DNA from: a virus
Reading direction: 5' to 3' (one strand)
DNA length: 42,249 nt
Virus record (IMG/VR): IMGVR_UViG_3300027996_000002
Location: 1-42,249 of that record
In this document: positions 5,290 to 42,249 of the stretch, piece by piece
How positions within the stretch are numbered: the stretch's first letter is position 1
Layout: every line of letters begins with the position of its first letter
Made by a program: the position numbers and the translations under genes
Notes under the pieces: generated by a model
Database searches by the model: none
What the model was told of the DNA's origin: nothing
What the model saw: only the letters and a program-made list of their open reading frames with translations

Positions 5290-6922
5290 CTTCTTTGAAT
5301 TAGCTACCCCCTCAGAGGAACAGGAATTATTTAATGCTGTCGATGCGTTTACACCCGCGTCTACTATGGACGGGATGATTGCAGCAGGTAAGACAGGGTA
5401 CAGAAACAACTTATTTTCTATGGCAGTAGATGCCGCACGATCAGATATTGAACCGATATTTAATCCTCAGCTTAATAGACCTGTATCTCCAGGTGAAGCT
5501 AAGGAAGTATATGGTCTCGACATTGAAGAACCAATCACTCAGATCGACGCCACTATTAGGTCGGAGAGAAACCAACTACTCCGACGGCAAGAAGCTATCC
5601 AACAGGAAGCAGGGTTAGGGGGGATTGGGAGATTCATAGGTAATATGGGTGGAGGACTTATTGATCCTCTAGCTTTACTAGGTGGACTTGCAGCAGGGAA
5701 AGCAGCCGTGTCTGTAGGCAATCAGATGGTAAACGCGGGGACTATGGTTAAAGTAGGACGGGTATTGAACGCCTCAGCTCATTCAGGTACTCCTCAAGGA
5801 ATTATAGCGAGAGAGATGGTAGAGAACGCTGTAGCTTCTACGATTATTGATATCCCTTTAGGAGAACACGTAGAGAATATCTATAACGAAGACATCACCG
5901 CAGCCGAACACTTATTTAATATAGGCGTGGGAACCTTGGCGGGGACTATGTTCCGTTACCTTGGGAGAGTGTTCGCGAAACCTGACTTAGACCTTAACCC
6001 TGAAGTAGTTAATAAAGTGGTAACAAAAGAACTACAGGAAGCAAACAGGACAGGCAGAGCGCCTGATCCTGAGAAAGCTATCGAAACGTGGAAAGCAGAA
6101 CAAGCTGAGTATAGGAGCAACCCTGATAACATACAAAATGCTAGAAGAATATTAGAAGAAGAAGGTACTAACGAAGCAAATTATTACGTGGCTCACCTTG
6201 AAGGGCAGCCTGAACAAGTAATTCGAGGTGTTAAACCTCTTACCGATGATGGTATTATTCTCACGAACAATCCTGCTCATGCTTTTTCTGATACTTTCCA
6301 TATTGTAGGAGGTGGTGTACATAAAGTAGACACCTCTAAGTTAAAATTATTTGAATTAGATGAAGCGAGCGTGACCGCTTTTGATGCCTCTACTAGGGGT
6401 AAAGTTACTGCCCAAGGGTTTCAAGGGTTGACTTATGTAAAAGACGGGGAGGTATTAGTAGAATTATTCGAGCCTCCTAGAGAGGGAAGCATCCCTATTA
6501 AAGACGACATGAAGCCCCGTCCTACAGAGTCTACTCATATAGACCCTAATGACGTAGAGCCAAAGGTTCAGTCAGAATATAAAAGTGATAACCCATTATG
6601 GACTGAAGAGAAATTTGGTGAGCAATATAAGACGGTACACCAGGATGCGGATACTACCACTCCAACTAAGGCTGCCGATGTAGCTAAGGAAGCTGAAGAG
6701 TTTGTTCAAGAAATTACTGAGGATATACAGAGAGCTGCTTCCGACATTGAGGAAGGTATTGAGTTAGTCCGTGAAGTGGAGAGTCAGACAGGTATTGATC
6801 CTTTTGATGACACTCCTAGATTTTTAAAAGAAGTTAGGAATATAGCAGAGAAATTTCAAGGAGACCCTGAGTTATTTGAAACTCTAGTTAAAGCTACTAT
6901 AGCTTGTATGAGGAGAAATTAA
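5279..6922 (+). CDS. Internal virion protein with possible ADP-ribosyltransferase-like domain
   Basis: A 547-residue protein. The ATG at 5279 is chosen because TGAGG lies upstream and the first clean residues begin there; an upstream in-frame extension to 5237 lies inside the preceding gene. Residues about 110-150 contain a Gly-rich hydrophobic stretch. Residues about 300-402 form a compact alpha/beta module with the pattern LTNNPAHAF, then GGGVHKVDTSKLKLFELD, then a Gly-Leu-Thr segment and VLVELFEP. This resembles the small ADP-ribosyltransferase-like domains of phage polyvalent/MuF-type proteins, a similarity judged by eye only. The C-terminus is acidic and coiled-coil-like. With the next gene it probably replaces a single gp16-like ejection protein. 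Stop and next start overlap as TAATG. Confidence 0.55.
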   Translation: MANNFFELATPSEEQELFNAVDAFTPASTMDGMIAAGKTGYRNNLFSMAVDAARSDIEPIFNPQLNRPVSPGEAKEVYGLDIEEPITQIDATIRSERNQLLRRQEAIQQEAGLGGIGRFIGNMGGGLIDPLALLGGLAAGKAAVSVGNQMVNAGTMVKVGRVLNASAHSGTPQGIIAREMVENAVASTIIDIPLGEHVENIYNEDITAAEHLFNIGVGTLAGTMFRYLGRVFAKPDLDLNPEVVNKVVTKELQEANRTGRAPDPEKAIETWKAEQAEYRSNPDNIQNARRILEEEGTNEANYYVAHLEGQPEQVIRGVKPLTDDGIILTNNPAHAFSDTFHIVGGGVHKVDTSKLKLFELDEASVTAFDASTRGKVTAQGFQGLTYVKDGEVLVELFEPPREGSIPIKDDMKPRPTESTHIDPNDVEPKVQSEYKSDNPLWTEEKFGEQYKTVHQDADTTTPTKAADVAKEAEEFVQEITEDIQRAASDIEEGIELVREVESQTGIDPFDDTPRFLKEVRNIAEKFQGDPELFETLVKATIACMRRN

Positions 6923-9255
6923 TGGTTGATTGCACCGACGCACTATTGAAAGCGTTCCCAGGCATGGATAAGAGTAATATAGAAACGATCCTGTCTGAGG
7001 TTACTCAAATTAGGAGACGGAAGAGTCTGTCCCTCGCTGGGAAACAAGAGGAGTATAAGAAACTAAAGGATGCAGGGAAAGCTTTCGCTGCTCTAAGGTT
7101 AAAGAACCAGATTAACGATCAGATTAAAATCTCTAAGATTATAGATAACGCCTTAAATAATAAAAGGTTTCCTAACGTAGAGGAAGCCCTGCTTAATATC
7201 TTTGAAAGTATCGAAGCTAATGAGGTATCAGTAGATGCCCTACGAAACACTAATAACGAAATCCTCCAGTCAAATTTAGTAACAGGATTGAGACAAGCTA
7301 AGCTAGAAGAAGCCGCCGCTTCAGGAATCTATGACAGAAGAGTAGCTAAGGCTATGTTTGATAACGTAGAGTACACTGGGGATGGGGCGGATATTGTTAA
7401 TGGGTTAGCGAAGGTTTTTAAAGCCTCTAATGAAGCTATGAGAGTTATGCTCAACGATGCTGGAGCCAGTATCTTTAGACGAGCTGACTTTATCCACAGC
7501 CAGTTCCATCACGGAGACAAGATCAAGAAAGCTGGAGTAGATAAGTGGATTGCTGATATAAAGACTAAACTTGATATAGAGAAGTCTTTCTCTCACTTAA
7601 AAGATGCTCAGGGAGACATCTCTGAGAAGAGTATTCTTGAGGAACTAGGGAAGAAATGGAAGAAATTAACCGAGAGTTACGATGCCATGCAAGGGTTCAG
7701 TGTAGAGGAGTCTGTTGATAAGATTATCTCTGGGAATAGGATAGTAGATCGTATGAACAAGAGTAGGAGTTTACACTTCAAAGATGGTGAAGGCTTCTAT
7801 GATTATAATCAGAAGTATGGGAAGGATGGGAATTTAGTTGATACCTTGAACTCTAGTTATAATAAAGCAGCAAAGAACGCAGCTATGATTGAAGTACTAG
7901 GTACCTCTCCTCAGAAGAATTTAAAGAAAGTTATTAAAGTAGTAGTAGCTCAGACTCAGACTCCTAAGCCTCTAGCTTCAGCTATTAGTAAGAAAGTTAT
8001 TAGTGCTTTCGATGTCGCCAACGGCTCTGGGGAATATGGTATCGCGAATAAGCGTGCCTTTATAGGGAGAACTGCTCGTACTATTGAAACCTTAAGTCTA
8101 CTAGGTAGAGCAGTGTTCTCTGCTGGTATGGATATAGTACCTACTATGATGCACACTAAGGTGTCCACTGGAGAGAATTTAATGGTGGCAGGGTTTCGTT
8201 CTATAGGAGAGTTTATGACTAACATCTCTCCTGCTCAGAGGAAAATTGCTGCTAAGGAAATGATGCTAGTTTCTGAGGCTTTCACCAACCAACTAAAAGA
8301 ATCTTTGATTGGCTCGTCATACTCTCCAGGTAGAGGGTCACGAATGGTCGACGCTTTGTTTACTATAAGTGGTCTGAACTTTGTAACCGACGTAGCTAGA
8401 AAGGCTAATGGTAGGCTAGCTATTACTGATCTTACTAATATAGTGAAGTCAGGTAAACATACGCTTGAGCAAAAGAATACCATAGCTAGATTTGGACTTA
8501 CTCCTGAAGACTTAGCATCTCTAGATAAAGTAGGAGATATTAATCCAGCAGCTTTAAGAGACACATCAGCTAAAGACTTAGGACTAACCGAAGAGGGGAA
8601 GCGTGGACTAATTAAGAAGGTTCACTTAATGATTAATCAGAGAGTTAGTAAAGGTTCCCCGTTACCTGATGCGCGTACACGTAGGAGACTTGGTTTCAAT
8701 AATCCAACAGGTACAACTAAGGGAGAAGTTTGGAGATTCTTTGCTCAGTTCAAATCCTCAATCATGAAGATCACACAAGATACAGAGTTCATGATGCGAG
8801 CCTCCTCAGAAGATGGAGGGATCGCGAACCAGAAGAGTATAGCAAACCTTGCGCAGTTTATGATCTTAGCCACCGCTGTAGGGGGTATGAGAAATCTAGC
8901 TGTTAGTGCAATTGGAAATCCTAACGAGTTCGACTTTGAAGAGAGTGTCTCCTCCCATGAGTTCTGGGCAGGTGCCTTTGTAACTGGTGGTGGGGCGGCT
9001 ATCGCAGGGGACGCCATTGCTCCCCTATTCATGGGTAGGTCAGCAGTGTCCACGGATGCTGCAATAGGTCGATTCTTTGTTGGTCCTGTTGGTCAGTCTC
9101 TTATTGAGGGGACTACTGAATTGAGGGACTTAGCGGTAGATGGGTTCGATGAGTCGACAGCTAAGTATATGGTGGGGAAGGTACCCTTCCAGAATATGTG
9201 GTTTCTCATGCACGTAAATAAGAAGGTTGCAGAGATACTAGGAAATGCGTTATAA
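6922..9255 (+). CDS. Large internal virion protein, gp16-like C-terminal part
   Basis: A 777-residue protein starting at ATG 6922, which overlaps the upstream TAA and has AGGAGAAAT before it; the frame is open from TTG 6904. It is mainly helical. Two hydrophobic segments near the C-terminus (about residues 643-667 and 681-706) could cross the inner membrane, as expected for the innermost ejectosome component. No lytic transglycosylase motif is evident, so peptidoglycan opening by this particle is not explained by a T7 gp16-type N-terminal domain. The assignment is by order, size and hydrophobic C-terminus. Confidence 0.6.
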   Translation: MVDCTDALLKAFPGMDKSNIETILSEVTQIRRRKSLSLAGKQEEYKKLKDAGKAFAALRLKNQINDQIKISKIIDNALNNKRFPNVEEALLNIFESIEANEVSVDALRNTNNEILQSNLVTGLRQAKLEEAAASGIYDRRVAKAMFDNVEYTGDGADIVNGLAKVFKASNEAMRVMLNDAGASIFRRADFIHSQFHHGDKIKKAGVDKWIADIKTKLDIEKSFSHLKDAQGDISEKSILEELGKKWKKLTESYDAMQGFSVEESVDKIISGNRIVDRMNKSRSLHFKDGEGFYDYNQKYGKDGNLVDTLNSSYNKAAKNAAMIEVLGTSPQKNLKKVIKVVVAQTQTPKPLASAISKKVISAFDVANGSGEYGIANKRAFIGRTARTIETLSLLGRAVFSAGMDIVPTMMHTKVSTGENLMVAGFRSIGEFMTNISPAQRKIAAKEMMLVSEAFTNQLKESLIGSSYSPGRGSRMVDALFTISGLNFVTDVARKANGRLAITDLTNIVKSGKHTLEQKNTIARFGLTPEDLASLDKVGDINPAALRDTSAKDLGLTEEGKRGLIKKVHLMINQRVSKGSPLPDARTRRRLGFNNPTGTTKGEVWRFFAQFKSSIMKITQDTEFMMRASSEDGGIANQKSIANLAQFMILATAVGGMRNLAVSAIGNPNEFDFEESVSSHEFWAGAFVTGGGAAIAGDAIAPLFMGRSAVSTDAAIGRFFVGPVGQSLIEGTTELRDLAVDGFDESTAKYMVGKVPFQNMWFLMHVNKKVAEILGNAL

Positions 9256-9295: not shown

Positions 9296-10873
9296 ATGTC
9301 AGGCGGAATACGGTCTAAAGCCCACCGAGGTAGGACCACCGATTCAGTAAACGGCGAAGGTCGTACAACCCCAACAGAATTTGTAACAGGTCAACCGATG
9401 GGTCACTCCCGTGTCGGACTCGATACAATCATGATGGCGACACACTTTATATCTAATGCAGTGAATCCCGAAGCTGGATCTACATCACGAAAAATTATAT
9501 CAACTGGTCACCCTGCACGTAGAGGGGACATGATCCGAGTACTGACTACCGCTAATGGTATTCAGGAATACGAGATTGCCGTTGACAGTGTCACTGCTAA
9601 CGAAATCTTCCTAACGGGAGATACAACAGATGGTTCAGGTGCTGCTGCTGCTTTTGACCCTGCTGATACTTTCGATATTCTCCGTCCAGTCCAGCTCAGA
9701 ACTGCCGCAGATGGTGGTATTGCTACTGGTCCTGTATCTTTTACATTGGATGGTGCGTCCCAGGTAGTGACCGAAGATACCGTCACTCCTGCTAACAATG
9801 CTCCTCTCCCTGTCAAATTAACAGGACTAACAGGGGATATTAATATCACAGCAAATGACCTGCACATGCAGCTCGAACATAACGGTGCCAACCCTGACTC
9901 TGTTCAAGTAGGTAATGGTACAAACGTGATGGCAGTTAATGCCTCCCTTCAAGCAGAAGTACACGACACAGACCTCAATGCACTACTTACCTTATTGAAC
10001 GCTAAGTTCGTCACAGGTACAGACATCGGGGACGTTACGATTAATAACGCTGCTGGTGCCGCCGCTGTCAACATTCAGGATGGCGGTAACTCTATTACAG
10101 TTGATGCCCTGAACCTAGATATCCGAGACCTTACTCATGTGAGTGACTCTGTTTCTATTGGAGATGGTGTAGAGATAATGGCGATCAATGCTTCATTAGA
10201 AGCGCAAGTCAGAGATGATGACGCCAACACAGCCCTCGGTACTGTTAATACAAACCTTGGACTTATCAATGCGAAGTTCGGTTCACTAGGACAGAAAGCC
10301 TCAGCCGCTTCCGCTCCAGTGGTCCTCTCTTCTGAACAAGAAGTTATCCTAACAGCGATACAGACCGCTGTGGAAATTATAGACAACGCTATCGCCGGTA
10401 CAGAGATGCAGGTAGATATTGTTGATGGTGGGCTTCTGTCTACCGAAGCTACCTTAGCTGCCCAGAGTGCTAAGTTCCCCGCAGCGTTAGGCTCGACTAC
10501 TTCAGCCGCCTCTCTATCAGTAACTCTCGCAAGTGATGAAGCTGACATCGGGATGGCTCAGGATGATGTCTTAACATTTGACACCCTAGATATCAGTGGT
10601 GCTAACATTACCTTCGCTGGTTACACGGAACTCGTTGCAGACATCGGAGCTACCGCAGGTAAACAGGTTCATATCTTCACTTCAACAGGTGAGCCTCTGG
10701 TTCTGGCAATTGGAGCTGTTGCCTCTGAAGCTGATAAGATGATTATATTCCCAGGTGGTTCGCCTCACGCGGTGACACCTGTTACACTACCCGCTAACGC
10801 GAGACTCAGCTTACGTAAACTCACAGCAGGAACGGTAAGTGCAGGGTTTGTTCATATTAACGTAATGGGATAA
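9296..10873 (+). CDS. Beta-rich tail or fibre structural protein with internal repeats
   Basis: A 525-residue acidic protein rich in Ala, Asp, Thr and Val, with almost no Cys. Two related segments recur: about residues 198-240 and about 280-330 both contain an Asp-Ser-Val, then a Gly-(Asn/Asp)-Gly, then (M)A(V/I)NASL(Q/E)A, then an Asn-Ala-Lys-Phe ending. Such repeats suit a trimeric or elongated tail component. It follows the ejection proteins and has a strong AAAGGAG site before ATG 9296. I do not recognise a named family; baseplate or fibre is inferred from position and composition. Confidence 0.55.
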   Translation: MSGGIRSKAHRGRTTDSVNGEGRTTPTEFVTGQPMGHSRVGLDTIMMATHFISNAVNPEAGSTSRKIISTGHPARRGDMIRVLTTANGIQEYEIAVDSVTANEIFLTGDTTDGSGAAAAFDPADTFDILRPVQLRTAADGGIATGPVSFTLDGASQVVTEDTVTPANNAPLPVKLTGLTGDINITANDLHMQLEHNGANPDSVQVGNGTNVMAVNASLQAEVHDTDLNALLTLLNAKFVTGTDIGDVTINNAAGAAAVNIQDGGNSITVDALNLDIRDLTHVSDSVSIGDGVEIMAINASLEAQVRDDDANTALGTVNTNLGLINAKFGSLGQKASAASAPVVLSSEQEVILTAIQTAVEIIDNAIAGTEMQVDIVDGGLLSTEATLAAQSAKFPAALGSTTSAASLSVTLASDEADIGMAQDDVLTFDTLDISGANITFAGYTELVADIGATAGKQVHIFTSTGEPLVLAIGAVASEADKMIIFPGGSPHAVTPVTLPANARLSLRKLTAGTVSAGFVHINVMG

Positions 10874-10875
10874 TT

Positions 10876-12252
10876 ATGAAGAAAATATTTTTAATCTTAG
10901 TCTTGTTCTGTATCACGACAGGGATAGCGAAAGCACAGTGGTTCACTAACACAGGAACCAACAGTGCTACTGAGGCTAAGACCTTCTACGATCAGATGTC
11001 ATTTAACAACGGTACTGGATTTCAGTCAGTCAATGCTACCTCTACTCAGCTCTTAGGTCCTATTACCTTTGCGGCGGGGATGGCAATTGACGAGGATGAC
11101 ATAGACCCTGAAGCTGACTTCTATGCAGGGCGTGGCGTCTTCTCAATGAACGCCACAGGAACTCCTCCTACCGCTTGTTTTAATAACGGTAGGGTTTACG
11201 TAAAAGGCGACAATAAAATATACGCCCAAGTGCCTCCTTCGTGTACCGAGGTAGAAATAACAGGCAACACGGGCACCGCCGCTGATGATGCTAAATGTAT
11301 CAACAACCTAGGTCTCAACGTAACGATGGTCTCTGGTACAGGAACTATTGATATCACTCAAAAGAATGGAACCTCTGCTCCTACAGGTGCGCAGACCGTT
11401 GATATTTGTTTTAGAAATGCCTCCCTCACCAATGGTGGGTATGTTATTCGCTCTGTAACAGGAGCGACAGGGACACTAGATATCGCAAGAGGAGCTACTT
11501 TAGGAGTAGCTTCTACTTCTCATGAATTATACGCCTATGCTATTGATGATGTAGGTACAGTTCGAGTGGCTGTGTCTGCTACTTATTTTCCAGACGAGTC
11601 CATTACTTTAAACACTGCAACCATGACAGCGACTAGCGCGTCAGGCTCAGTTATGTATGCTGATGCTGAATACAGCAATGTGCCCTTCAGACTTCTCGGC
11701 TCTTTCCGAGGGGGACAATCTGATCTTGGAGAGTGGGTTTCTCCTGCTAGCTCTACTCAATTATTTAAGGAAACAGAACCTCAGTTCTGCACTATCTCAG
11801 ATAAGAAAGCCAGTGGAACAATAGGTGGGCAGTACACAGGGGCAGTTCCTTGGGACGTTAGAGACCTTAATGACATCGGCTCCAATTGCTTCTATGTAAA
11901 CAGTATTCAGACTTTTGGACAAGGGAACTCTGCTTGCTTAATAAAAGGGAAGTATAAAGTAAAAGTTGAATCTCCTATGGCTCAAGCAGGTAACTTCATG
12001 GCGAGGCTTGTTACTATAGTCAATAGTGCCACTAGCTCTGTTATCTACAGCCACTCAAACAGAGAGGATTCTGGCAGTGGTGTTAATAATATTTACGCCG
12101 TGGTCGAAGATGTCATTGAATTAACTGACGATGGGTGTATTAATGTCCAAAATAGAGCACAAATTACAGGTGGCTCAGGCGACTTTGGTAACCCTGTCTC
12201 CTTCGGAGTAGATGAAACTTATACGACTATTAAACTAAGGAAGATACGATAA
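10876..12252 (+). CDS. Secreted or tail-associated beta-rich protein with Sec signal peptide
   Basis: A 458-residue protein. The N-terminus is a textbook signal peptide: Lys-Lys, a hydrophobic core to about residue 15, and Ala-Lys-Ala before Gln21 as signal peptidase I site. The mature part is Thr/Ser/Gly/Asn-rich with several Cys (for example in PTACF, PPSCTEV, DDAKCINN and DGCIN), compatible with disulfides formed in the periplasm. It lies between a tail protein and the fibre gene, only two bases after the upstream stop. A signal peptide is unusual for a virion protein, so the product may be exported by the infected cell. No family recognised. Confidence 0.6.
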   Translation: MKKIFLILVLFCITTGIAKAQWFTNTGTNSATEAKTFYDQMSFNNGTGFQSVNATSTQLLGPITFAAGMAIDEDDIDPEADFYAGRGVFSMNATGTPPTACFNNGRVYVKGDNKIYAQVPPSCTEVEITGNTGTAADDAKCINNLGLNVTMVSGTGTIDITQKNGTSAPTGAQTVDICFRNASLTNGGYVIRSVTGATGTLDIARGATLGVASTSHELYAYAIDDVGTVRVAVSATYFPDESITLNTATMTATSASGSVMYADAEYSNVPFRLLGSFRGGQSDLGEWVSPASSTQLFKETEPQFCTISDKKASGTIGGQYTGAVPWDVRDLNDIGSNCFYVNSIQTFGQGNSACLIKGKYKVKVESPMAQAGNFMARLVTIVNSATSSVIYSHSNREDSGSGVNNIYAVVEDVIELTDDGCINVQNRAQITGGSGDFGNPVSFGVDETYTTIKLRKIR

Positions 12253-12470
12253 TGAAAACTTTTATACTAGCAAGCTTGCTTAGTTTTAATGTGATGGCAC
12301 AGTCAGCACTTATGAATAGTACTACACCTGCTTTCTCTCAACTTGAGTCAGATGCTAAGACCATCAAGTGCAAAGTAGCTTTAAACGACCCTGTCCTAGC
12401 AACAGCCGGAGGTCATCTTAAGCGATTGCTTAGGGTTGCTTGCAGACTACTTCAAGGAAAGGACGAGTAA
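12252..12470 (+). CDS. Small exported protein with signal peptide
   Basis: A 72-residue protein whose ATG overlaps the previous stop (TAATG). The N-terminal 16 residues form a signal peptide with Val-Met-Ala before Gln17. The remaining 56 residues include two Cys and end in a basic, helix-like segment. It is the second consecutive gene with an export signal in the late operon and overlaps the next gene by one base (TAATG). Function unknown; a periplasmic role in lysis or superinfection control would fit the location. Confidence 0.5.
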   Translation: MKTFILASLLSFNVMAQSALMNSTTPAFSQLESDAKTIKCKVALNDPVLATAGGHLKRLLRVACRLLQGKDE

Positions 12471-22399: not shown

Positions 22400-22607
22400 C
22401 TTTACTCCCTTTTAATTCTGTGGCTAGCACAGTTGGCTCTGATACGCTGTCGCTAAATAGTACCTGTAATCCTAGTACCTTTACGTTTGGTTTGGGGATC
22501 ATCAGTGCCATGCACTCTCTCCCCGCTACTTGGTGCTCGGTCATTTGTTCATGCACCTTTAATAATTCAGTGCCGATTAAACGCTCGACCCATTGTACGT
22601 CATTCAT
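22299..22607 (-). CDS. Hypothetical protein overlapping helicase start
   Basis: A 102-residue protein. ATG 22607 overlaps the primase-helicase stop as TGATG, with AGGAGGAG upstream. The first 68 residues look like a folded domain (helix, then PNVKVLGLQVLF). The last 33 are Ser/Asp/Gly-rich, apparently disordered, and share DNA with the helicase N-terminus in another frame. No family recognised. Good start signals and coupling make it a likely real gene. Confidence 0.6.
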   Translation of the reverse strand: MNDVQWVERLIGTELLKVHEQMTEHQVAGRECMALMIPKPNVKVLGLQVLFSDSVSEPTVLATELKGSKDGVQDTPLSASIESTGDESADAGPSSAVGDGNG

Positions 22608-24958
22608 CAAAACTCCTCCTCTCCCTGGGCTAGTTTGTACCCAGATAATACGCGCTTAAGTACGCCGTCTGTTCTCACTCGTTTAAATGCTTTGTTATCA
22701 TTTACAATCGACGCTACCTTTCGACCGAACCAAACTTGATTCTTAGGCTTGATGCCTTGTTGCTCGGCTGTCATTTTATACGATAGGTATAAGTCATTGA
22801 TCGTGATCCCCGTCTCGGGGGCACATGGTACGATTGCATCTTCCCACCATGAAAGGATGTCATCGTTTGCTCTACGGTAATCTTCTAATTGTTTGGTGAC
22901 TTCCTTAGATTCAGTGAAGCCCTTCTGCCGTTGGAATTTTAGCAGTGCTGGAATGATTAAGTTGTATATGCCTGACGCCTCAGCGTACAGTTTGTCACGG
23001 ATCAGGGGATCGTACCCCTCTATATCTAGACCGAACTTCTGTTTGAAGGGAACCAGTAACAGGCGACGAAACATACCGTGTGACAAATCCTTGGTAGACG
23101 GTAGCTCATTACAAGCCATAATGATTTTCGCATTATTTTTCATGGAGTAAGCATCACAGTATAGCTTCCTTGCTTGAACCTCGCCCCCTGTTACTAGTGC
23201 CTTAAAGATAGTGTTGTCCATCATTGCGTTCGTTGGTGTTTCTTCTGAGATGTTGAACAACTTACCATCTAATTGATATCTGTTTTCTAGCTTGTTAATT
23301 TCATGTCCCATACTAAGCGTACAATAGTTTCCCTTACCTGCGAGGTACTTAAGAGTGTCCATAAAAACGGATTTTCCGTTTGAGCCGTCCCCGACAAGGA
23401 TAAGACATTTCTGTCCGATAGAGGGGTCAATCCCAGATAGGGAGTAGCCCATATATTCAAGGAGGAGTTGTTGTAATCCTCGGTCGCTACTACAAACCCT
23501 GTCAAGGAACCTCTCGAACGACGGACATTTTGCATGAGGGGAATAACTAAAGGGTAGCACGTATCGAAATCCTTGTTCAAGATCATGATCTCGAAGTTCC
23601 ATGGACTGTATGTCGAGTACCCCGTTGGCGAAATTGATATACCCTTGAGGGTTAAGCCACTCTGGGTCTCTAACATGATTTCTTTGTAGCTTACCCCTAA
23701 ATTCAGAGCACATCTGATTATTGGGTTTAGGATCGAAATTTTGCTCTGCAAACTGATCGATTTTTCTGAACGCATAGTCCTCCCAGCAAGAGCCACGCCA
23801 TACATAGGTCAGGTTCCCGTCAGTCATTGAGACGAATGGATGTTCCTTGTAAAAGTGGCGCATCATATCGTCATAGTTAGGCTTGCCCTTCTTAGGCAGA
23901 CCGTCTTGTCCTAGTGTTATGTTGTAGAATCCAGTGTCTCTGGTCTTGATGTAGTCCTCTGTTTGGAGGACGATGGGGGATTTACATTTACCGTAAGACG
24001 GACACGCGGTGCATCCATCCCAAAGCGTTGATATATTGTCACAAGTTCTTGGACCTGCTGTCTTAATAGCTTGTGCAAACTTTCTATCCGTTTCTGATTC
24101 GGCATATCCTGAGTGTCCTCTACTGAATACATGAGATAGTTCTCTCCCGTTATCCAACCTTCCGATAATCGACAGCAAAGCGTACCATTGAGGCTCGGAG
24201 AGTTCTTCTGAGTTGTCTTTGCACCACTTGATGTACTCGCATCCATTTAATACTCCTTTAGTATCGGGCGGCGGGAGACGCTCAAGCATTTCATCCGACA
24301 CCTGTTCATTATATTTAACTAAGGGTATGCCTGACTTCTGAATGATATCGAAGTCAACGGGAATTATGTTTGCATTTAATACGGTGGCTTGCTTCTCTCC
24401 TTTCTTTGGCTTGATATTTTTCGTGCCTGGAAGCCGCAGTAAACGGGCAGCCGAAAAAACCGACGGGTCTGAGGAGCCGGACAGCCCTGAATTGTATAAG
24501 GCTTGGTCGAGCTTGCCCAGAATTGCTTTGTAGTATACTCGGTGTTCATCAAAGAACTGTTCATCGTGGATCGTAGAATTGGTAGCAACAAGAAATTGGA
24601 GACCGTTGCCACTACTAACAATACCCACAGAATCCGACTCGACACCCAACACTGCACATACTGGAAGTATGTAAGCGTCAAGATGCTTAAGATCGTTATC
24701 TTCGATATCGTCGATATCAAAAGGTATGATACGTTGAGTTTCAAGTACTCTCCCTCGCCTCTCAAGACAAGAGGCTGCTGTGTAATACAGGTTATACTTT
24801 TCTTCTTCTGGTATTTTATGCAGTATGGTATCTAGGTTTTTAAAGAGTTCTGGAACGGACTCGGCTCTCCAGTTATTCTCGAAGAAAGCTTCTTTCTTCT
24901 TGATTTTATTCTCTTTTTTGTCAAAATATTCACGGAGTCCTAGGATTTGAACACTCAC
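22607..24958 (-). CDS. Primase-helicase (AEP-type primase plus D5-like SF3 helicase)
   Basis: A 783-residue fused replication initiator. The N-terminal half resembles an archaeo-eukaryotic primase: FDIDDIED (Asp81-x-Asp83), SGNGLQFLV and RLLRLPGTKN. A Cys cluster (CDN, then GCTACPSYGKC) forms a likely zinc or Fe-S site in the middle. The C-terminal half is a D5/SF3 helicase with Walker A GDGSNGKS (about 519-526), a Walker B region with NISEETP, and the sensor-like IIMACNELP. It should synthesise primers and unwind DNA for the family A polymerase. Start GTG 24958 with GAGGAGGTG upstream; a sigma70-like promoter lies at 24981-25009. Confidence 0.9.
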   Translation of the reverse strand: MSVQILGLREYFDKKENKIKKKEAFFENNWRAESVPELFKNLDTILHKIPEEEKYNLYYTAASCLERRGRVLETQRIIPFDIDDIEDNDLKHLDAYILPVCAVLGVESDSVGIVSSGNGLQFLVATNSTIHDEQFFDEHRVYYKAILGKLDQALYNSGLSGSSDPSVFSAARLLRLPGTKNIKPKKGEKQATVLNANIIPVDFDIIQKSGIPLVKYNEQVSDEMLERLPPPDTKGVLNGCEYIKWCKDNSEELSEPQWYALLSIIGRLDNGRELSHVFSRGHSGYAESETDRKFAQAIKTAGPRTCDNISTLWDGCTACPSYGKCKSPIVLQTEDYIKTRDTGFYNITLGQDGLPKKGKPNYDDMMRHFYKEHPFVSMTDGNLTYVWRGSCWEDYAFRKIDQFAEQNFDPKPNNQMCSEFRGKLQRNHVRDPEWLNPQGYINFANGVLDIQSMELRDHDLEQGFRYVLPFSYSPHAKCPSFERFLDRVCSSDRGLQQLLLEYMGYSLSGIDPSIGQKCLILVGDGSNGKSVFMDTLKYLAGKGNYCTLSMGHEINKLENRYQLDGKLFNISEETPTNAMMDNTIFKALVTGGEVQARKLYCDAYSMKNNAKIIMACNELPSTKDLSHGMFRRLLLVPFKQKFGLDIEGYDPLIRDKLYAEASGIYNLIIPALLKFQRQKGFTESKEVTKQLEDYRRANDDILSWWEDAIVPCAPETGITINDLYLSYKMTAEQQGIKPKNQVWFGRKVASIVNDNKAFKRVRTDGVLKRVLSGYKLAQGEEEF

Positions 24959-25108: not shown

Positions 25109-25792
25109 TCACTTGCTTAACCAACACTCAAACCCCGCAGCGGGGGACACAGCACCGTTCAAGTTCCATTGAAGAACTCTAGAGTACGTCTGCCCTACCG
25201 CGATATTCTTTACTGTCTTGCAGACGATACCCGCTAAAATATTAGCGCAGTAAATCGTTGACTTGGCAGTACACTTCTCAAACTTTGCATCGTCATCTGA
25301 GTACCAAGAGGCGTTGTAACCTTCAACGTCCTTTGGTTCGTTCGGATTAAAAGTGTAAAGAAGCATTGTCTCTGCACCCATCCTAGGGTCAATGAAGATT
25401 TCTGGATGCTTACAGCTTTCAAAGATTTCTTTCCTCACTGCCATTGAATCAACGGCGGCGATGATTATTTCATCCTTAAGCTCGAAGCTTTTGTCCCACT
25501 TCATCTCCATCGGAGTGATGTCGATGTTCGTAAACATCTTAATCATACGGTGTAGAGCCATTACTTTTGGTTGTCCTATCTCTGCGACTGGATAGAATTG
25601 ACAGTTCATATTCTCAACGTCAATCTTATCGTGATCCCAGACAGTGACATTACTGAAACCCATCTTAACAAGGGAGAGAGCGACCCATGATCCGACCGCC
25701 CCTGCTCCTACAATAGTAATACGCTTACCTAATGCTTCCATTGGGATTAAATCCATCTGCCGGATAAGCGTGTCTTCTAGTTTAATAGTCAT
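25109..25792 (-). CDS. E1-like ThiF/MoeB-family adenylating enzyme
   Basis: A 227-residue minimal E1/ThiF protein. The Rossmann nucleotide loop is GAGAVGS (residues 29-35), followed by VWDHDKID (Asp53/Asp55), ENMNCQFY (Asn61, Gln65), IGQPKV (Lys76) and AAVDS (Asp115). Candidate thioester Cys are Cys174 or Cys182 in KFEKCTAKSTIYC. The CxxC zinc pairs of MoeB are absent. The Arg of the usual N-x-x-R-Q motif is replaced (Asn-Met-Asn-Cys-Gln). It would adenylate the C-terminal Gly of the Ubl at 29654. AGGAGGAACT precedes ATG 25792; only 8 nt separate it from the JAMM gene, so the two are co-expressed. Confidence 0.88.
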   Translation of the reverse strand: MTIKLEDTLIRQMDLIPMEALGKRITIVGAGAVGSWVALSLVKMGFSNVTVWDHDKIDVENMNCQFYPVAEIGQPKVMALHRMIKMFTNIDITPMEMKWDKSFELKDEIIIAAVDSMAVRKEIFESCKHPEIFIDPRMGAETMLLYTFNPNEPKDVEGYNASWYSDDDAKFEKCTAKSTIYCANILAGIVCKTVKNIAVGQTYSRVLQWNLNGAVSPAAGFECWLSK

Positions 25793-25800
25793 AGTTCCTC

Positions 25801-27078
25801 CTATACCGTAACTTGGTATTTGTTTTTCATGTACTTACTAGGGTTGTAGAACAAAGCTTCAGTCATCGTCTGCCTGTCCATAAAGGATTTATCTAAGTCC
25901 CAATCGTCAACTGGAGGTCTTCCCTTAACTTTTAGATAAGTGTCAAACTCTTCCTCTCTAGCCCCTAAGTAGTCGAGCATGTTATCTTCAGTATACTGAG
26001 GATACTTAGCCATAAACTGCCTGTAGTTAATCCAGTTGCCATTTTTACCAAAGCTTCTATCCCAACGAAGCATCCCTATAGTAGGGTGGATGACTCCTGT
26101 AGCTCTAGTGGCGGAAGATACGGCTAAAACGTCATAGAAAACATTGTAATCAAGATTAGTACAAACGCTAAGTCCAATACTGACTGGGGCAGCCTTCTTA
26201 GACTGTACCACAGCCGTACCTTTCGTCCCATTGGTCTTCGAGTCGGTTGAGGTACCCTTCCCAACTTTCGTTGTTGCAGTCCCAGTGGGGATCGTATCCT
26301 GCTCCAGAGCTTTCTTTGCTTTCCGTCTCCCCCTCTTTGAAGAGGGTCGGGGCTTTCCCAAGATTGAGTGGGTTCCTTCAAGGACATACCTGGGTACTCC
26401 AATAATAGGAGTTGCGTCCCAGTAGGTTGTTGCTTGGAGGAGTTGGTCGTATTTAGGGTAGTATTGGTTTTTCTCGAACGCAGTCCACTCTCTTGTATTA
26501 TTTCCTTTATGGACTTTACTAAGTGACCTCCGTGTCTTGGCTTTCAACTCATACTCAGAGTCCCAAATCTTAACCTTAGCTTCATCTAGTACAGGCTGAT
26601 CAATCTCCATCTCTAGATCATTCAAAAACACAGGAGGAAGAAAACCATTATCACCTTGATAAAAGGCAGACTTAGTCTCGTTCTTCTTGTTAAACACTGT
26701 AGCCAAACAGAAGCCCTGGTCACCGTACTGTTTAATAGTATCGGTATCAGTCCCACTCCAGAAGACATTCATGTTAACATGTGAGTGCCACCAAAAGTTT
26801 AAGTGCCCTGGCTCGTCCCTAGATTCAAACTGTAGCTTTGAAACTGCCGTAGCGTCTAAGTCCGTAGTGGCTGCTGTATTTACTTGTTCTAGAAGATAAG
26901 CTTCCGTCACATGAAATGCTCCGTCTTTGTAGATACACTTACCTAATCCTGAAATTTCTAGAGGGCACTTTCTTACCCAATACATGATCTTTTCGTAAGC
27001 GTCCCTCGCGAAAATCACCTTCGGCTTCCCTTCTTGAAGCTTCGGCTTGTTTAAATTTTGTGAATAGTATGTCGTCAT
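25801..27078 (-). CDS. JAMM/JAB metalloprotease (deubiquitinase-like) with C-terminal extension
   Basis: A 425-residue protein. Residues about 18-150 form a JAB/MPN domain: EISGLG with Glu41, then His98-Ser-His100, seven residues, Ser108, two residues, Asp111, the exact zinc-protease motif. It should cleave after Gly-Gly, maturing the Ubl precursor and/or removing it from targets. Residues about 225-295 are a low-complexity Lys/Thr/Gly linker, followed by an unrecognised C-terminal domain (about 300-425) that may bind E1, E2 or substrate. AAAAGGTAAATA precedes ATG 27078. Located between the E2-like and E1-like genes. Confidence 0.9.
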   Translation of the reverse strand: MTTYYSQNLNKPKLQEGKPKVIFARDAYEKIMYWVRKCPLEISGLGKCIYKDGAFHVTEAYLLEQVNTAATTDLDATAVSKLQFESRDEPGHLNFWWHSHVNMNVFWSGTDTDTIKQYGDQGFCLATVFNKKNETKSAFYQGDNGFLPPVFLNDLEMEIDQPVLDEAKVKIWDSEYELKAKTRRSLSKVHKGNNTREWTAFEKNQYYPKYDQLLQATTYWDATPIIGVPRYVLEGTHSILGKPRPSSKRGRRKAKKALEQDTIPTGTATTKVGKGTSTDSKTNGTKGTAVVQSKKAAPVSIGLSVCTNLDYNVFYDVLAVSSATRATGVIHPTIGMLRWDRSFGKNGNWINYRQFMAKYPQYTEDNMLDYLGAREEEFDTYLKVKGRPPVDDWDLDKSFMDRQTMTEALFYNPSKYMKNKYQVTV

Positions 27079-27125
27079 TATTTACCTTTTGGTGAGATGT
27101 TAATATTACTGCGAAAAGACTGAGG

Positions 27126-28898
27126 CTAAAAAGGGTAATTAGGGACGGGGGGTGCCACTGGGGAGATATAGTGTGAACAATCTCTACAATACCTCTCGTT
27201 AGCCGGCATTTCGGTACCATTTCTATTAGAGGGTTCAATGTTTGTTGAATCACATTGATCACATTGTACAGCGGGCTGACCGTCAGAGCTTTCGCTAAGT
27301 GACCTCCGATCTTTAATCTTATATCGCTTAGTGAAAACATCCTTAATCTTAGGATTAGTAGGTTGTAGGTCTCTAATACAAAAAGTCCTAAGAGAGGTCT
27401 CACCTTCAAGTGCTACTTTGTAGTGCCAATCTTGGCTCCCTCTAGTAGTACTATTTGTCCACTTCCCCGAACTAACACTGTAGTAGCTAAATAACCCTTG
27501 AATCCTCACAACGATACCTTTCTTACCTAGCCTACTGGAATTTCCTGAATGGCTCCCATCTACAACAATAACTTCATCCCCAATGAATAGAGACTTGTGT
27601 TTATGGAATATGGTACGGGCTGCCTCAAACTGAGCTAAAATTGGACCTGATATAGGTTCAAGTTCATCTCTCGTCCTACCTGTACTGTTCTCTCTGTAGT
27701 CCCCTACGCCAAACTTATCTACTCCAGCTTTCTTGCCAATTAAGACAGTGGAGTGACAGATGTTCTCTTTATCACTGATTTGAGAAACAGAGTGCCCTTT
27801 CCTTTTTAAGCGGTAAACTAACGCTACGTAGTCATTAAACTCAGCCCCGTTACCCATATCAAAGTTCCCTCTAATCAACACCAACTGCCCCACTGCTAAT
27901 GGAGATTCAGTGTCCCATTCAGGCTTTCTCTCAACGTCCACAGGCAAATCACCTGGGATAAATGGGTAATCATTTGGCGTAAAGTCCCCCTGGCGACGTA
28001 TCCCTGACTTAAAGGTATTACGAACAAGTGTATCAAAGGTACTTAATCTGATGTATGGATTTTCAGGGCAGTAAGTATGCAGCAGCGAGTGGAGTAAACT
28101 AAATGTTTCAGAATACTTCCTGTCATATAGACCTTGTTGCGCCCTCCTCTTAGCTGACCCCCAGCAAATTTTACCTTCAGTACCAATGTGTGTATGGTAA
28201 AAGGCGTTACACTGTAAACAGTTAAGCCCCTTAAACACTCTGAGACTGTTAGAAGCTAATCCTAACCTAGCAATCAAGATACCAAAGTTCACACTCAAAT
28301 CTAGACCGGCAGCCTCATTCTTCTGAGTTTGAATTACGTTACGGGTGGTAGCAAAGTAAATATCAGAACCATCGGAACTAATGTGAACAATCTGCCAGTG
28401 ACCTGAGTTAATGATTGATACAATCTCTTTGTAAAGCGATTCATCAGACTCACCGTTAGCTAATGACAGCTTAAGAGCAGCTAATAAATCAGTATGCTTT
28501 ACTAATTGCGTACGGTAATTTTCAGCATCTCGATCATGACTGGCAATTCGATCAGTAAGAGCTTTAGCATTTTGTGTTTCGGTTACAATCTGCCCCTCTA
28601 AGTTTCCTCCTGTGAAGGAACAAATCTTAGCTTTATTAGGCTCGATTTTCTGTAAACTAAGCTTAACGTAATCCGCTTCGGGCAGCGAGTCTCGCAGTCC
28701 AAAGACTATTCTATTCAACTCTGATAGGTCAGTAATCATTGTCCCATCAGTAATAAAACTCTCCATCTTAACTTCATCGTATCGTGGATCGATCGAATTA
28801 GTTAATCGTGCCAAGTGTGCAAAAGCATCTTGGAGCGGGGGAGCAAGGGTACTTGAATCTTTCTTCAAGTCTCCAATTGTTTGTGTCGCAAGTGACAT
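27126..28898 (-). CDS. E2-like ubiquitin-conjugating protein with KOW-like and zinc-ribbon regions
   Basis: A 590-residue protein. Residues about 165-290 match the E2 core order: beta strands, then FYHTHIGTEGKICWG. His235 and candidate catalytic Cys245 have the ten-residue spacing of the eukaryotic HPN-to-Cys motif, followed by a helix (SLLHSLLHTYCPENPYIRLS) like E2 LLxxPNPxxPL. The G-K-I-C-x-G pattern also recalls the prokaryotic E2 of PRTRC protein B. Residues about 436-466 look KOW/SH3-like. The C-terminus has a zinc ribbon (Cys546/549, Cys571/574). Residues 1-150 are helical. It would accept activated Ubl from E1; the extra domains may choose substrates. AAGGAG precedes ATG 28898. Confidence 0.7.
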   Translation of the reverse strand: MSLATQTIGDLKKDSSTLAPPLQDAFAHLARLTNSIDPRYDEVKMESFITDGTMITDLSELNRIVFGLRDSLPEADYVKLSLQKIEPNKAKICSFTGGNLEGQIVTETQNAKALTDRIASHDRDAENYRTQLVKHTDLLAALKLSLANGESDESLYKEIVSIINSGHWQIVHISSDGSDIYFATTRNVIQTQKNEAAGLDLSVNFGILIARLGLASNSLRVFKGLNCLQCNAFYHTHIGTEGKICWGSAKRRAQQGLYDRKYSETFSLLHSLLHTYCPENPYIRLSTFDTLVRNTFKSGIRRQGDFTPNDYPFIPGDLPVDVERKPEWDTESPLAVGQLVLIRGNFDMGNGAEFNDYVALVYRLKRKGHSVSQISDKENICHSTVLIGKKAGVDKFGVGDYRENSTGRTRDELEPISGPILAQFEAARTIFHKHKSLFIGDEVIVVDGSHSGNSSRLGKKGIVVRIQGLFSYYSVSSGKWTNSTTRGSQDWHYKVALEGETSLRTFCIRDLQPTNPKIKDVFTKRYKIKDRRSLSESSDGQPAVQCDQCDSTNIEPSNRNGTEMPANERYCRDCSHYISPVAPPVPNYPF

Positions 28899-28917
28899 AA
28901 ATTCTCCTTGGTTGGTA

Positions 28918-29118
28918 CTAGCTATCTTCCGATAACCTCTCTTTTACTTTTTCAACAGTAATCTCTTTTAAGTCGGAACCAGACTCAGAGTGTTCTTCAA
29001 CCATCTGATCTAGAGTAGAAATAAAATCATCTGAGTTGCCTGGAGCAAATATAGGGCGATCTTCTAGATATTCATCTATTACACTTTCCCTGCTCCAGTG
29101 ACTTTGAAATATTCCCAT
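28918..29118 (-). CDS. Small acidic protein in the ubiquitin-like cassette
   Basis: A 66-residue, strongly acidic protein with a predicted helical C-terminal half. No family recognised. It is flanked on both sides by the same AACCAAGGAGAATTTATG ribosome-binding spacer, which also precedes the E2-like gene and the KOW-like gene, so it is co-translated at similar levels. It could be a regulator, adaptor or substrate of the Ubl pathway; that is inference from position only. Confidence 0.6.
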   Translation of the reverse strand: MGIFQSHWSRESVIDEYLEDRPIFAPGNSDDFISTLDQMVEEHSESGSDLKEITVEKVKERLSEDS

Positions 29119-29131
29119 AAATTCTCCTTGG

Positions 29132-29479
29132 TTAATGGCTTCCTAGTTTTTCCATATCAAATTCAGGTGCTCTTACTAAACTTGAGTCCGTTGAATTGTC
29201 ATATCCTAGCCAGCAAAGTTCTGTACTTTTCTTGTTGCGGTAAGCGAAAGCTTTAATAGTCTCAACTACTTCAATAATCTCTTTCTCGTAGACGTTATAC
29301 GCAGCAGCTCCGGCGGTGTTACCATTTTGATTCACTGTTTTAACGTAGTATGGGTAGGAAGTCCCTGTCTTAGCTCCATTGTACTCAGTTAATTGGGTTT
29401 TAATGATAACGCCTGTTTTAGGTGTAAAGATACCCCCAGGTTTAAATTTTACTAGGTCCCCTAAGTTGTATTTAAGCAT
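29132..29479 (-). CDS. Small KOW/SH3-like protein in the ubiquitin-like cassette
   Basis: A 115-residue protein from ATG 29479, which has AAGGAGAATTT upstream. A longer frame to 29557 exists but its first 26 codons run through the tRNA-like element and are not likely translated. The N-terminus (LGDLVKFKPGG, then KTGVIIK) has the strand-turn pattern of KOW/SH3-like barrels, similar in style to residues 436-466 of the E2-like protein. The rest is alpha/beta without a known motif. Function unknown. Confidence 0.65.
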   Translation of the reverse strand: MLKYNLGDLVKFKPGGIFTPKTGVIIKTQLTEYNGAKTGTSYPYYVKTVNQNGNTAGAAAYNVYEKEIIEVVETIKAFAYRNKKSTELCWLGYDNSTDSSLVRAPEFDMEKLGSH

Positions 29480-29494
29480 AAATTCTCCTTGGTT
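29477..29494 (-). repeat. Repeated ribosome-binding leader (one of three identical copies)
   Basis: AACCAAGGAGAATTTATG occurs identically at 29477-29494, 29116-29133 and 28896-28913, each ending in the start codon of a cassette gene. Related CCAGGAGAA leaders precede genes at 30586, 31271 and 33255. Identity over 18 nt exceeds what ribosome binding needs and may reflect module shuffling. Confidence 0.85.
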
Positions 29495-29502
29495 AATAAA
29501 AA

Positions 29503-29607
29503 TGGTGCTCCTCACAGGACTTGAACCCGCATCTTCCCTACCTAGACCACTAATCAAGTTATTGAACCCTGGGCCTTTGGGGGCTTTACCAGTTAAGCTA
29601 TTGGAGC
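29503..29607 (-). tRNA. Degenerate tRNA-like element, anticodon unclear
   Basis: The 105-nt minus-strand sequence starts GCTCC and ends GGAGC-A-CCA with the CCA encoded. The D-arm (TA, GCTT, loop with GG, AAGC) and T-arm (GCGGG, TTCAAGT, CCTGT) are good. The acceptor has five pairs and two mismatches. The anticodon arm is irregular; CAGGG-TTCAATA-ACTTG would give CAA (Leu) with one mismatch and an odd base 37, after an extra CCCCCAAAGGCC-like insert. It could be a pseudo-tRNA, a class II tRNA with insertion, or a tRNA-like RNA-processing signal. Confidence 0.45.
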
Positions 29608-29611
29608 AAAA

Positions 29612-29636
29612 TAGCCTCCCCCGATTCCGAGGGAAG
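29612..29636 (-). terminator. Weak hairpin after the Ubl gene
   Basis: Between the Ubl stop and the tRNA-like element the minus strand has CCCTC, a six-base loop and GGGGG followed by AGGCTATTTT. The stem is short with a G-T pair and the U-run is interrupted, so it is at best a partial terminator or processing site. Confidence 0.3.
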
Positions 29637-29653
29637 CGATTCTTTAAAAGATG

Positions 29654-29890
29654 TTACCGACGTTTAAGAAAAGTCCTCTTAACTTTCTTCATTCCGCCTT
29701 TAACAGCTTCAGCAAATGAGATGAAGTCAAAGTCACGAAGACTACGTTTCATCTCAGCAGGTTGACCGTTAATGGTCGCTGTGTAATTACCACTCAAACC
29801 TAGTTTAGCCTTAGCTTCTTCGACGTTTTTTACTCCGTCTAAAACTTTAGGTTGTCCACCAGTTACTTGTGCAGTTACATTCTTAGCCAT
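29654..29890 (-). CDS. Ubiquitin-like (ThiS/MoaD-type beta-grasp) precursor with internal Gly-Gly
   Basis: A 78-residue protein. The order strand (NVTAQVTGG), strand (QPKVLDGV), helix (NVEEAKAKLGL), strand (NYTATINGQPAEM) and final strand (FDFISFAEAVKGG) is that of a beta-grasp fold. The end strongly resembles ThiS/MoaD tails. Gly65-Gly66 is followed by a 12-residue basic tail, MKKVKRTFLKRR, so exposure of the Gly-Gly needs proteolysis; the JAMM protease of the same operon is the natural candidate. TAGGAGGTAAATC precedes ATG 29890. It is the first of the E2, JAMM and E1-linked genes. Detection is by pattern and context, and a profile search would decide. Confidence 0.7.
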   Translation of the reverse strand: MAKNVTAQVTGGQPKVLDGVKNVEEAKAKLGLSGNYTATINGQPAEMKRSLRDFDFISFAEAVKGGMKKVKRTFLKRR

Positions 29891-41336: not shown

Positions 41337-42215
41337 ATGGCAACGTCCGTTGAAATTTGTAATGCAGCTTTAATGAGAGTAGGCGCTGAAGCTATTAATG
41401 GTTTTAGTGATAATACTAAAAGAGCTAAGCTGTGTAAAAACCACTATGATAGAATTAAGAAGGAGATGATTGTATCATCACCTTGGAACTTCTGTCTCAA
41501 AAGAACAACTCTATTTGCAGAAAACCAAACCTTTACCACGACTGACGTAGCGATTGCCACTGAGCAAGTAACCCTAACGGCACATGGTAAAGTAACAGGA
41601 CAAAGAGTTACTCCTTCTGTTACTACAGGAAACTCTCTCCCTGAAGGATTATTCACTGGTAGGTCTTACTGGCTTATCGTAGTGGATGCCAACACTGTAA
41701 AGTTTGCCGATACGTTAGCCTTAGCGAACGCGGGTACAGCGATCGATCTTACAAGTATTGGTGTGGGGACATCGAAACTTCTGTTCGGACCTGAGTTTGG
41801 GTTCTTCGGACAGTTTCCCCTTCCTTCAGACTACTTAATTATATTCCGATCAGCGTTTGACTCTATAGAGTCGGCGTCTGTAACTCACTCTCACTCTTTA
41901 CTTTCTCATGGCTTTGATGGGGACACTCTCCATGGCTATCAAGTGGAAGGGAGTAAGCTCTATGCTGACGAGGAAGAGTTTAGGATGATATACCAAGCAG
42001 ACGTAGACGAGAGTTTATTCAGTTCATATTTTCAGCAAGCTCTCATTGCAAAACTGGCGATGGAATTTTCCTATACAATGGTTCAGAGTAATGAACTAAA
42101 AGCAGAGCTTAAGAAAGAACTAAAAGACACATCATCTCTAGCACGCAACAGAGATTCCACTGAGGGTACGCCTTACCCTATGACCGCTAATGAGTGGACA
42201 AACGCGAGGCACTAG
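41337..42215 (+). CDS. Tail tubular protein A-like (T7 gp11-like) with inserted beta domain
   Basis: A 292-residue adaptor linking portal and nozzle. The second of two ATGs (41337) gives better spacing to AGGAG. The N-terminus (VEICNAALMRVGAEAINGF, with KLCKNHYDRIKKEM and SPWNF) and the C-terminus (FSSYFQQALIAKLAMEFSYT) are gp11-like. T7 gp11 is about 196 residues; the excess lies at about 60-150, a beta-rich insert (VTLTAHGKVTGQRV, with GLFTGRSYWLIVVDANTVKF) resembling a common phage surface domain. It ends inside the terminal overlap, one base into the nozzle gene start. Confidence 0.85.
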   Translation: MATSVEICNAALMRVGAEAINGFSDNTKRAKLCKNHYDRIKKEMIVSSPWNFCLKRTTLFAENQTFTTTDVAIATEQVTLTAHGKVTGQRVTPSVTTGNSLPEGLFTGRSYWLIVVDANTVKFADTLALANAGTAIDLTSIGVGTSKLLFGPEFGFFGQFPLPSDYLIIFRSAFDSIESASVTHSHSLLSHGFDGDTLHGYQVEGSKLYADEEEFRMIYQADVDESLFSSYFQQALIAKLAMEFSYTMVQSNELKAELKKELKDTSSLARNRDSTEGTPYPMTANEWTNARH

Positions 42216-42249
42216 TGGGTAGGTTCAATCAAACTATAAATTCATTTTC
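42123..42249. repeat. Right copy of 127-bp terminal overlap
   Basis: Identical to 1-127. It contains the end of the tail tube A-like gene and the first codons of the tail nozzle gene, showing that the contig closes on itself with gene continuity across the junction. Confidence 0.95.

Follow-up and report, generated by a model that had tools for sequence, protein, structure and literature searches.

In bacteria, conjugation of ubiquitin-like proteins (Ubls) is best known as a means of fighting viruses; in this work we describe a cassette in a virus that is predicted to own a full, reversible pathway of this kind. The DNA analysed, which we call the window, is the whole 42,249-nucleotide stretch of IMG/VR record IMGVR_UViG_3300027996_000002, and the cassette occupies positions 25109-29890 of its minus strand, where a Ubl gene is followed, in transcription order, by two small open reading frames (ORFs), an E2-like gene, a JAB gene and an E1 gene. 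Among described systems, we take the one later named PRTRC to be row 6d of Iyer 2006. The E2 proteins of row 6d lack the upstream His and have a conserved downstream His (Iyer, Burroughs and Aravind 2006, PMC1779556), and the JAB protein of this row has an extra N-terminal alpha+beta domain (PMC1779556). In Bil, BilA has two Ubl domains, BilD is a two-domain E1 and BilB has a CEHH motif (PMC11354881); SAMP conjugation in archaea needs no E2 (PMC11354881); and in lambda-type tail assembly, TAPI is a Ubl and TAPK a JAB-NlpC protein (PMC1779556). Type II CBASS has an E2-E1 fusion, Cap2, and a JAB protein, Cap3.

The initial annotation had set the cassette beside PRTRC, Bil and CBASS loci. Compared by sequence and motif, it does not coincide with any of these: it is neither CBASS nor Bil, and PRTRC is the closest known system by content without the cassette being a member of it. 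We consider it likely, from sequence and predicted structure, that the cassette encodes a working, reversible, phage-encoded Ubl conjugation pathway, and the analysis thus supports the earlier proposal of a complete, compact pathway, with all ORFs lying on one strand as that proposal had them. The cassette is far beyond chance: across 27-29 diverged relatives the catalytic residues do not vary, and linkage of the genes is retained. The genes and domains of the four proteins are as follows.

29654..29890, minus strand: Ubl gene, 78 aa, with Gly65-Gly66 and a short basic tail (precursor-like)
27126..28898, minus strand: E2-like gene, 590 aa, multidomain, with the Cys245 codon at 28164-28166 and H235-T-H237 upstream
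28008..28442, minus strand: UBC-like core of the E2-like protein, about residues 153-297, from AlphaFold2 (AF2), Foldseek and a PDB profile search
27174..27293, minus strand: C-terminal zinc ribbon of the E2-like protein, about residues 536-575 (PF23451, below cut-off)
25801..27078, minus strand: JAMM/JAB protease gene, 425 aa, core about residues 18-200, from profiles and the JAMM motif
25109..25792, minus strand: E1/ThiF gene, 227 aa, single adenylation domain (PF00899), with R11, GxGxxG and Cys174 (CTAK)

Identification of the four proteins

Family searches with single sequences gave a clear result for the E1, a weak one for the JAB protein and none that was convincing for the Ubl and the E2. 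Relatives were collected by scanning IMG/VR with the JAB protein, which yielded 31 loci (L003-L033) whose ORFs were then profile-searched, and the conservation reported below comes from the resulting families.

The E2-like protein carries the catalytic motif H235-x9-C245 (HTHIGTEGKICWG) that the initial annotation had pointed out, and the region around Cys245 is predicted to have a UBC-type fold. The AF2 model of this domain has a confident core (predicted local distance difference test score, pLDDT, ~96), and all 50 of the Foldseek matches listed for it are E2 enzymes, UFC1 among them. Similarly, all 60 matches listed for the E2 family profile against the PDB are E2s, the best at 5e-4, and in the profile alignment the HPH...C of the family pairs with the eukaryotic HPN...C, an active site that the phage E2 resembles. 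Both C245 and G247 are invariant (27/27), and the upstream His is present in 26 of the 27. The protein also has a helix at its N terminus and, at its C terminus, a zinc ribbon (PF23451 at 0.0014, below cut-off). The ribbon recurs in L003 and L004, the nearest relatives, and Cys-rich tails of other kinds occur in several more. The ribbon is a possible substrate or E3-like module, and together with the N-terminal helix it could act in place of an E3. A scan of viral contigs with the single E2 protein gave no confirmed match.

The Ubl, JAB and E1 assignments made from the letters have likewise held. The AF2 model of the 78-residue Ubl is a beta-grasp with topology bb-a-bbb (pLDDT 84.6), its Foldseek matches include Mth1743, ubiquitin, SUMO, NEDD8 and MoaD, and the family profile matches the solved structures of SAMP2 (7e-7) and also ThiS, MoaD and Urm1. 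Gly65 is invariant (24/24), and Gly66 is replaced by Ala in five members. In the relatives, the Ubl mostly has few residues past the Gly pair, and some end in KGA or GG; in the window, the pair is followed by about a dozen mostly basic residues, and thus processing by the JAB protein fits the window well. The JAB motif is E41...H98-S-H100-x10-D111 plus S108, and all the metal and catalytic residues (E41, H98, S99, H100, S108 and D111) are invariant (29/29). While the single sequence matches Prok-JAB at 0.0013, the family profile matches the solved structures of Rpn11, JAMM1 and CSN5, the best at 2e-7. The protein is thus a predicted Ubl-processing enzyme that would also act in deconjugation; tblastn with it against phages and plasmids gave no match.

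The E1 matches PF00899 at 3.7e-23 as a single sequence, and its family profile matches the solved structures of UBA5, Uba1, UBA6 and ThiF at ~1e-16, as well as NAE and SAE2. Eight features, R11, the Gly motif, D53, N61, Q65, K76, D115 and C174, are invariant (27/27), and C174 is also invariant in the crAss-like homologues described below. From this invariance and the CTxK context, we infer that C174 is the catalytic Cys.

Several observations weigh against reading the cassette as a complete pathway. The Foldseek match of the E2 is consistent in identity, but its score is weak (best E 0.05, TM score ~0.5), PF00179 was touched by 5 of 28 E2 members with weak E-values, and the window E2 has Thr (HTH) where 26 of 27 have Pro (HPH). 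The HMMER alignments of the E1 that were shown end before C174, so that this residue is not aligned to a solved structure, and the E1 superfamily includes enzymes, such as TcdA, that use no Ubl. Finally, no E3 was recognised.

The same evidence bears on a second account, in which the E1 adenylates a ThiS/MoaD-like protein that, as a thiocarboxylate, would deliver sulfur to tRNA, a nucleotide or DNA, with the JAB protein serving only in processing. ThiS, MoaD and SAMP2, which the Ubl profile matches, also serve as sulfur carriers, the E1 consists of one minimal domain of the ThiF type and a tRNA-like sequence lies inside the locus. We regard this account as very unlikely. Sulfur pathways have no need of an E2, yet one whose catalytic Cys is invariant is found in nearly every cassette; the cassette showed no recognisable rhodanese or sulfurtransferase; and the tRNA-like insert is private to the window phage.

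Comparison with described systems

The likeness to PRTRC lies in gene content and surroundings. As in row 6d, the Ubl, E2-like, JAB and E1-like proteins are separate genes; the window E1 matches PRTRC_ThiF weakly (6.8e-11, below cut-off); and 7 of 29 related phages have a ParB-related gene close to the cassette, six of them by PF02195 within 3.5 kb and one (G016) by the PRTRC ParB model. Every ParB match found adjoined the cassette, with scores below the PRTRC_parB cut-off. However, the phage E2 keeps the upstream HP(H/N) in a eukaryote-like manner and has no invariant downstream His, the phage JAB protein lacks the extra N-terminal domain (its core begins at about residue 18), the window phage has no ParB-like gene, and the phage cassette is carried by tailed phages. 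Moreover, family members fall short of the PRTRC A and B models, such that none of A, B and ThiF is above cut-off; the PRTRC_C model gave no match among the relatives, with the controls equally silent. Because the E2 signature, the JAB architecture and the model scores depart from the definition and the window phage has no ParB, we do not claim membership of PRTRC; we claim that the mechanism is alike.

The ParB-like genes lie downstream of the E1 at 9630-10460 in L020, 11974-12888 in L024, 12114-13034 in L029 and 11902-12960 in L032. In the large-phage group, the ParB-like gene is followed by one for a protein of ~520 aa, maybe an AAA-type ATPase.

Bil resembles the cassette in having Ubl, E2, JAB and E1 as separate proteins, but the phage Ubl is usually single, the phage E1 has one domain (220-274 aa among the relatives), and positions +6, +8 and +13 after Cys245 of the window E2 are R, A and Y rather than E, H and H. 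Type II CBASS shares the E1, E2 and JAB chemistry, and the PADLOC models for E1-E2 proteins match the window E1 over their E1 half; in contrast to CBASS, the phage E1 and E2 are separate genes and a dedicated Ubl is present. Family searches recognised no cyclic-nucleotide synthase or CD-NTase among the cassette proteins. With the archaeal SAMP/JAMM1 system, the cassette shares a Ubl profile that matches SAMP2 and a JAB profile that matches JAMM1, but the phage cassette has an E2, as it does in contrast to the sulfur-carrier ThiS/MoaD systems. TAPI and TAPK are likewise a phage-encoded Ubl and JAB pair, but the lambda set is without E1 or E2 and lies in the tail operon, whereas the cassette lies in the replication region. 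A literature search, incomplete in coverage, found no description of a phage-borne E1-E2-JAB-Ubl cascade.

Since Bil and related bacterial operons have the same four activities (PMC11354881, PMC1779556), the cassette might be a Bil-like defence against competing phages, in which the Ubl attached to a rival's structural proteins spoils its particles; the biochemistry would be the same and the beneficiary another. Bacterial operons of the Bil kind are mobile and sporadic. In the crAss-like phages, however, every genome examined, cultured phages included, carries the cassette as a constant component of its replication block and not in an accessory hotspot. The PADLOC models were matched only through the generic E1 domain, and no defence partner genes were recognised nearby; we thus consider a defence role unlikely. 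The least likely account that we considered is counter-defence, in which the JAB protein strips host conjugates (Bil or CBASS Cap2 products) and the E1, E2 and Ubl are decoys or competitors. JAB-type enzymes do both process and deconjugate in bacterial operons (PMC11354881), but a lone JAB protein or a decoy Ubl would suffice for this purpose. Instead, the E1 and E2 have strictly conserved catalytic residues and all four genes have evolved in concert, which suggests that the JAB protein is matched to the phage's own Ubl. Nothing in the analysis points specifically to the anti-Bil activity that the initial annotation had offered as one possible function.

Relatives in tailed phages

The four genes are not carried independently of one another in other phages, an outcome that would have spoken against the initial annotation; they are linked in the 31 JAB-bearing loci. 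An E2 is present in 31 of 31 loci, an E1 within the stretch in 29 of 31 and a Ubl in most. In the two exceptions for the E1, L012 and L027, the end of the contig falls within the cassette, and the E1 is found at the far end of that record; a circular genome opened inside the cassette would give this arrangement. Exactly one E1 is found per record (29/29). Where the Ubl hidden Markov model (HMM) missed a locus, a divergent Ubl-like protein lies directly upstream of the E2 in those inspected; L023 starts too near the E2 for the presence of a Ubl to be judged. The order is Ubl-E2-JAB-E1 in most loci, and in L016, L018, L021, L026 and L028 the E1 has moved with the genes still together; thus, the cassette travels as a set and not as one frozen stretch. 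The relatives are ~12-60% identical to the window proteins, and the distances computed for the four proteins correlate with one another (Mantel r 0.47-0.77, p 5e-4). The records are 20-182 kb long, and 19 of 29 have a terminase match, which indicates that the relatives are mostly tailed phages. Cellular contigs rarely carry the cassette: one scan found two, both contigs of metagenome-assembled genomes.

Relatives are also found among cultured phages. An E1 of the family finds matches in 78 GenBank phage records, and crAss-like Bacteroides phages and Flavobacterium phages account for many of these. In phiCrAss001, the order is gp79-78-77-76, the same as in the cassette, with gp76 the E1 and gp77 the JAB protein, flanked by the primase on one side and by the uracil-DNA glycosylase region on the other, an arrangement preserved in eight related genomes; the records annotate gp76-gp79 as a ThiF, a metalloprotease and two hypotheticals. 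By sequence comparison, homology in the crAss-like phages is certain for the E1 (HMM 2e-39 to 2e-46) and for the JAB protein (hhalign 6.6e-15; Prok-JAB in 9/9). We consider gp78 a probable E2, because it aligns at HxH...C-x-G...PY with P values of 0.001-0.003 versus 0.25-0.84 for unrelated neighbour families; it was not recognised as an E2 in the PDB profile search. By its position, gp79 is a candidate Ubl; the profile comparison was not significant (P 0.1) and PDB searches gave no support. The main text of two crAss papers (PMC7886860, PMC6235969) mentions neither ubiquitin nor ThiF.

The Ubl-like domain of gp79 ends in KSG and is followed by a C-terminal extension. In crAss cr106_1 (L078 2199-3402), an HNH endonuclease gene parts the gp79-like domain, ending KSGKF, from the C-terminal part, an insertion point that would be expected if a domain border lay at the KSG site. 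In Flavobacterium phage Fpv1 (L036 4674-6966), the JAB gene is interrupted beside its catalytic motif, just before LIHSHN, by an endonuclease gene that lies on the other strand. Such endonuclease insertions often target conserved genes.

We propose, tentatively and with somewhat more doubt than confidence, that these cassettes form a deep, unrecognised viral family of Ubl conjugation with a core, probably replication-linked function in many tailed phages, crAss-like phages included, and that the family shares ancestry with the plasmid PRTRC cassette. The relation between that cassette and the phage pathway bears on the evolution of ubiquitin systems.

Individual loci vary in content. Two further loci, L073 and L074, have all four genes, and L070 has a JAB protein, an E1 and a candidate Ubl ending in SGGNVS, with no E2 detected. 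In L010, a second E2-like gene with an HPY...C motif lies immediately after the E1 (9600-10352); in L021, the Ubl consists of two tandem units, each with a KGG end (6233-6646); and in L013, a second Ubl-like protein (12042-12317) has no Gly-Gly and ends in a Cys-rich tail. In the Erwinia and Xanthomonas jumbo phages (L037, L040 4247-6925), an 892-aa E2-like protein (weak, 1.3e-7) adjoins the E1 and no JAB protein was detected; an ORF neighbouring it in the Xanthomonas phage ends in KASGG.

Predicted pathway and the interval between the Ubl and E2 genes

The interval between the Ubl and E2 genes holds the following features. The hairpin and the tRNA-like sequence, like the zinc ribbon of the E2 and the complete circular genome, were absent from the initial annotation, which had noted the two small proteins.

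29614..29637, minus strand: terminator-like hairpin directly 3' of the Ubl gene, 10 pairs, 7 of them G-C, a putative attenuator
29506..29607, minus strand: tRNA-like sequence (Rfam RF00005), between the Ubl gene and the small ORFs
29477..29492, minus strand: CCAAGGAGAATTTATG copy 1, exact ribosome-binding/start sequence at the p116 start
29132..29482, minus strand: p116, small ORF without detectable relatives and not in other cassettes
29116..29131, minus strand: CCAAGGAGAATTTATG copy 2, exact, at the p66 start
28918..29118, minus strand: p66, small ORF without detectable relatives and not in other cassettes
28896..28911, minus strand: CCAAGGAGAATTTATG copy 3, exact, at the start of the E2 gene

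A hairpin with a T-run lies after the Ubl gene in 12 of 23 cassettes, whereas 8 of 66 same-strand control gaps from these loci have one (Fisher p 2e-4). This test rests on simple gene calling, and the direction of the difference was constant across the thresholds tried. We infer that the hairpin is an attenuator that yields a surplus of Ubl, because it would end many transcripts ahead of the enzyme genes. The JAB protein would trim the basic tail and expose the C-terminal glycine of this Ubl; the E1 would adenylate it, with Cys174 probably carrying it as a thioester; and the Ubl would pass to Cys245 of the E2. The N-terminal helix and zinc ribbon of the E2 may pick the target, replacing a separate E3. 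The Ubl would end up linked to an amine on some protein of the phage or the host, from which the JAB protein could take it off again.

The role of this conjugation pathway is less certain. Most plausibly, it acts during infection to regulate proteins of the phage or the host in connection with genome replication or segregation, since in the window phage the cassette is located among genes for replication, as it is in the crAss-like and Flavobacterium phages. In the window, a primase gene (22607-24958) comes after the E1 on the same strand. On the other side, DnaB is ~50 kb or more from the cassette in the phages of 150-180 kb, and we rejected the replication link as a universal rule. A function in regulating replication or takeover is tentatively favoured over one in defence. 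If the pathway works, infecting phages control proteins by attaching a Ubl to them covalently. The linked set recurs in dozens of very different phages, and its core enzymes are also present in cultured gut crAss-like phages; tagging with a ubiquitin-like protein of their own is thus probably widespread among bacterial viruses. The crAss-like gut phages are abundant, and because the crAss-like relatives are culturable, the targets of phage tagging are directly testable.

Both small proteins between the Ubl and the E2, p116 and p66, are encoded by real ORFs, private to the window phage; almost all relatives have no gene at this position. The starts of p116, p66 and the E2 gene are an identical 16 bases, CCAAGGAGAATTTATG, of which the window holds three exact copies versus 0.03 expected, and which is found nowhere else in the genome. 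This common start suggests that p116 and p66 were inserted or duplicated along with their start site. The tRNA-like sequence scores 30.7 bits with RF00005 versus a gathering threshold of 29, has an insert of ~40 nt in the anticodon arm and is followed by CCA; ARAGORN did not report it in the window.

The first and last 127 bases of the record are identical (1-127 and 42123-42249), and the record is therefore a complete circular genome of 42,122 bp. It encodes tail, head-tail adaptor, head and terminase proteins, a PolA-type polymerase, a primase and a helicase, which identify it as a tailed phage, probably of short-tailed morphology. A search of phage records for DNA nearly identical to the window gave no match. 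Within the genome, a 23-bp exact match on opposite strands joins the E2 gene (27713-27735) and a structural gene (7524-7546).

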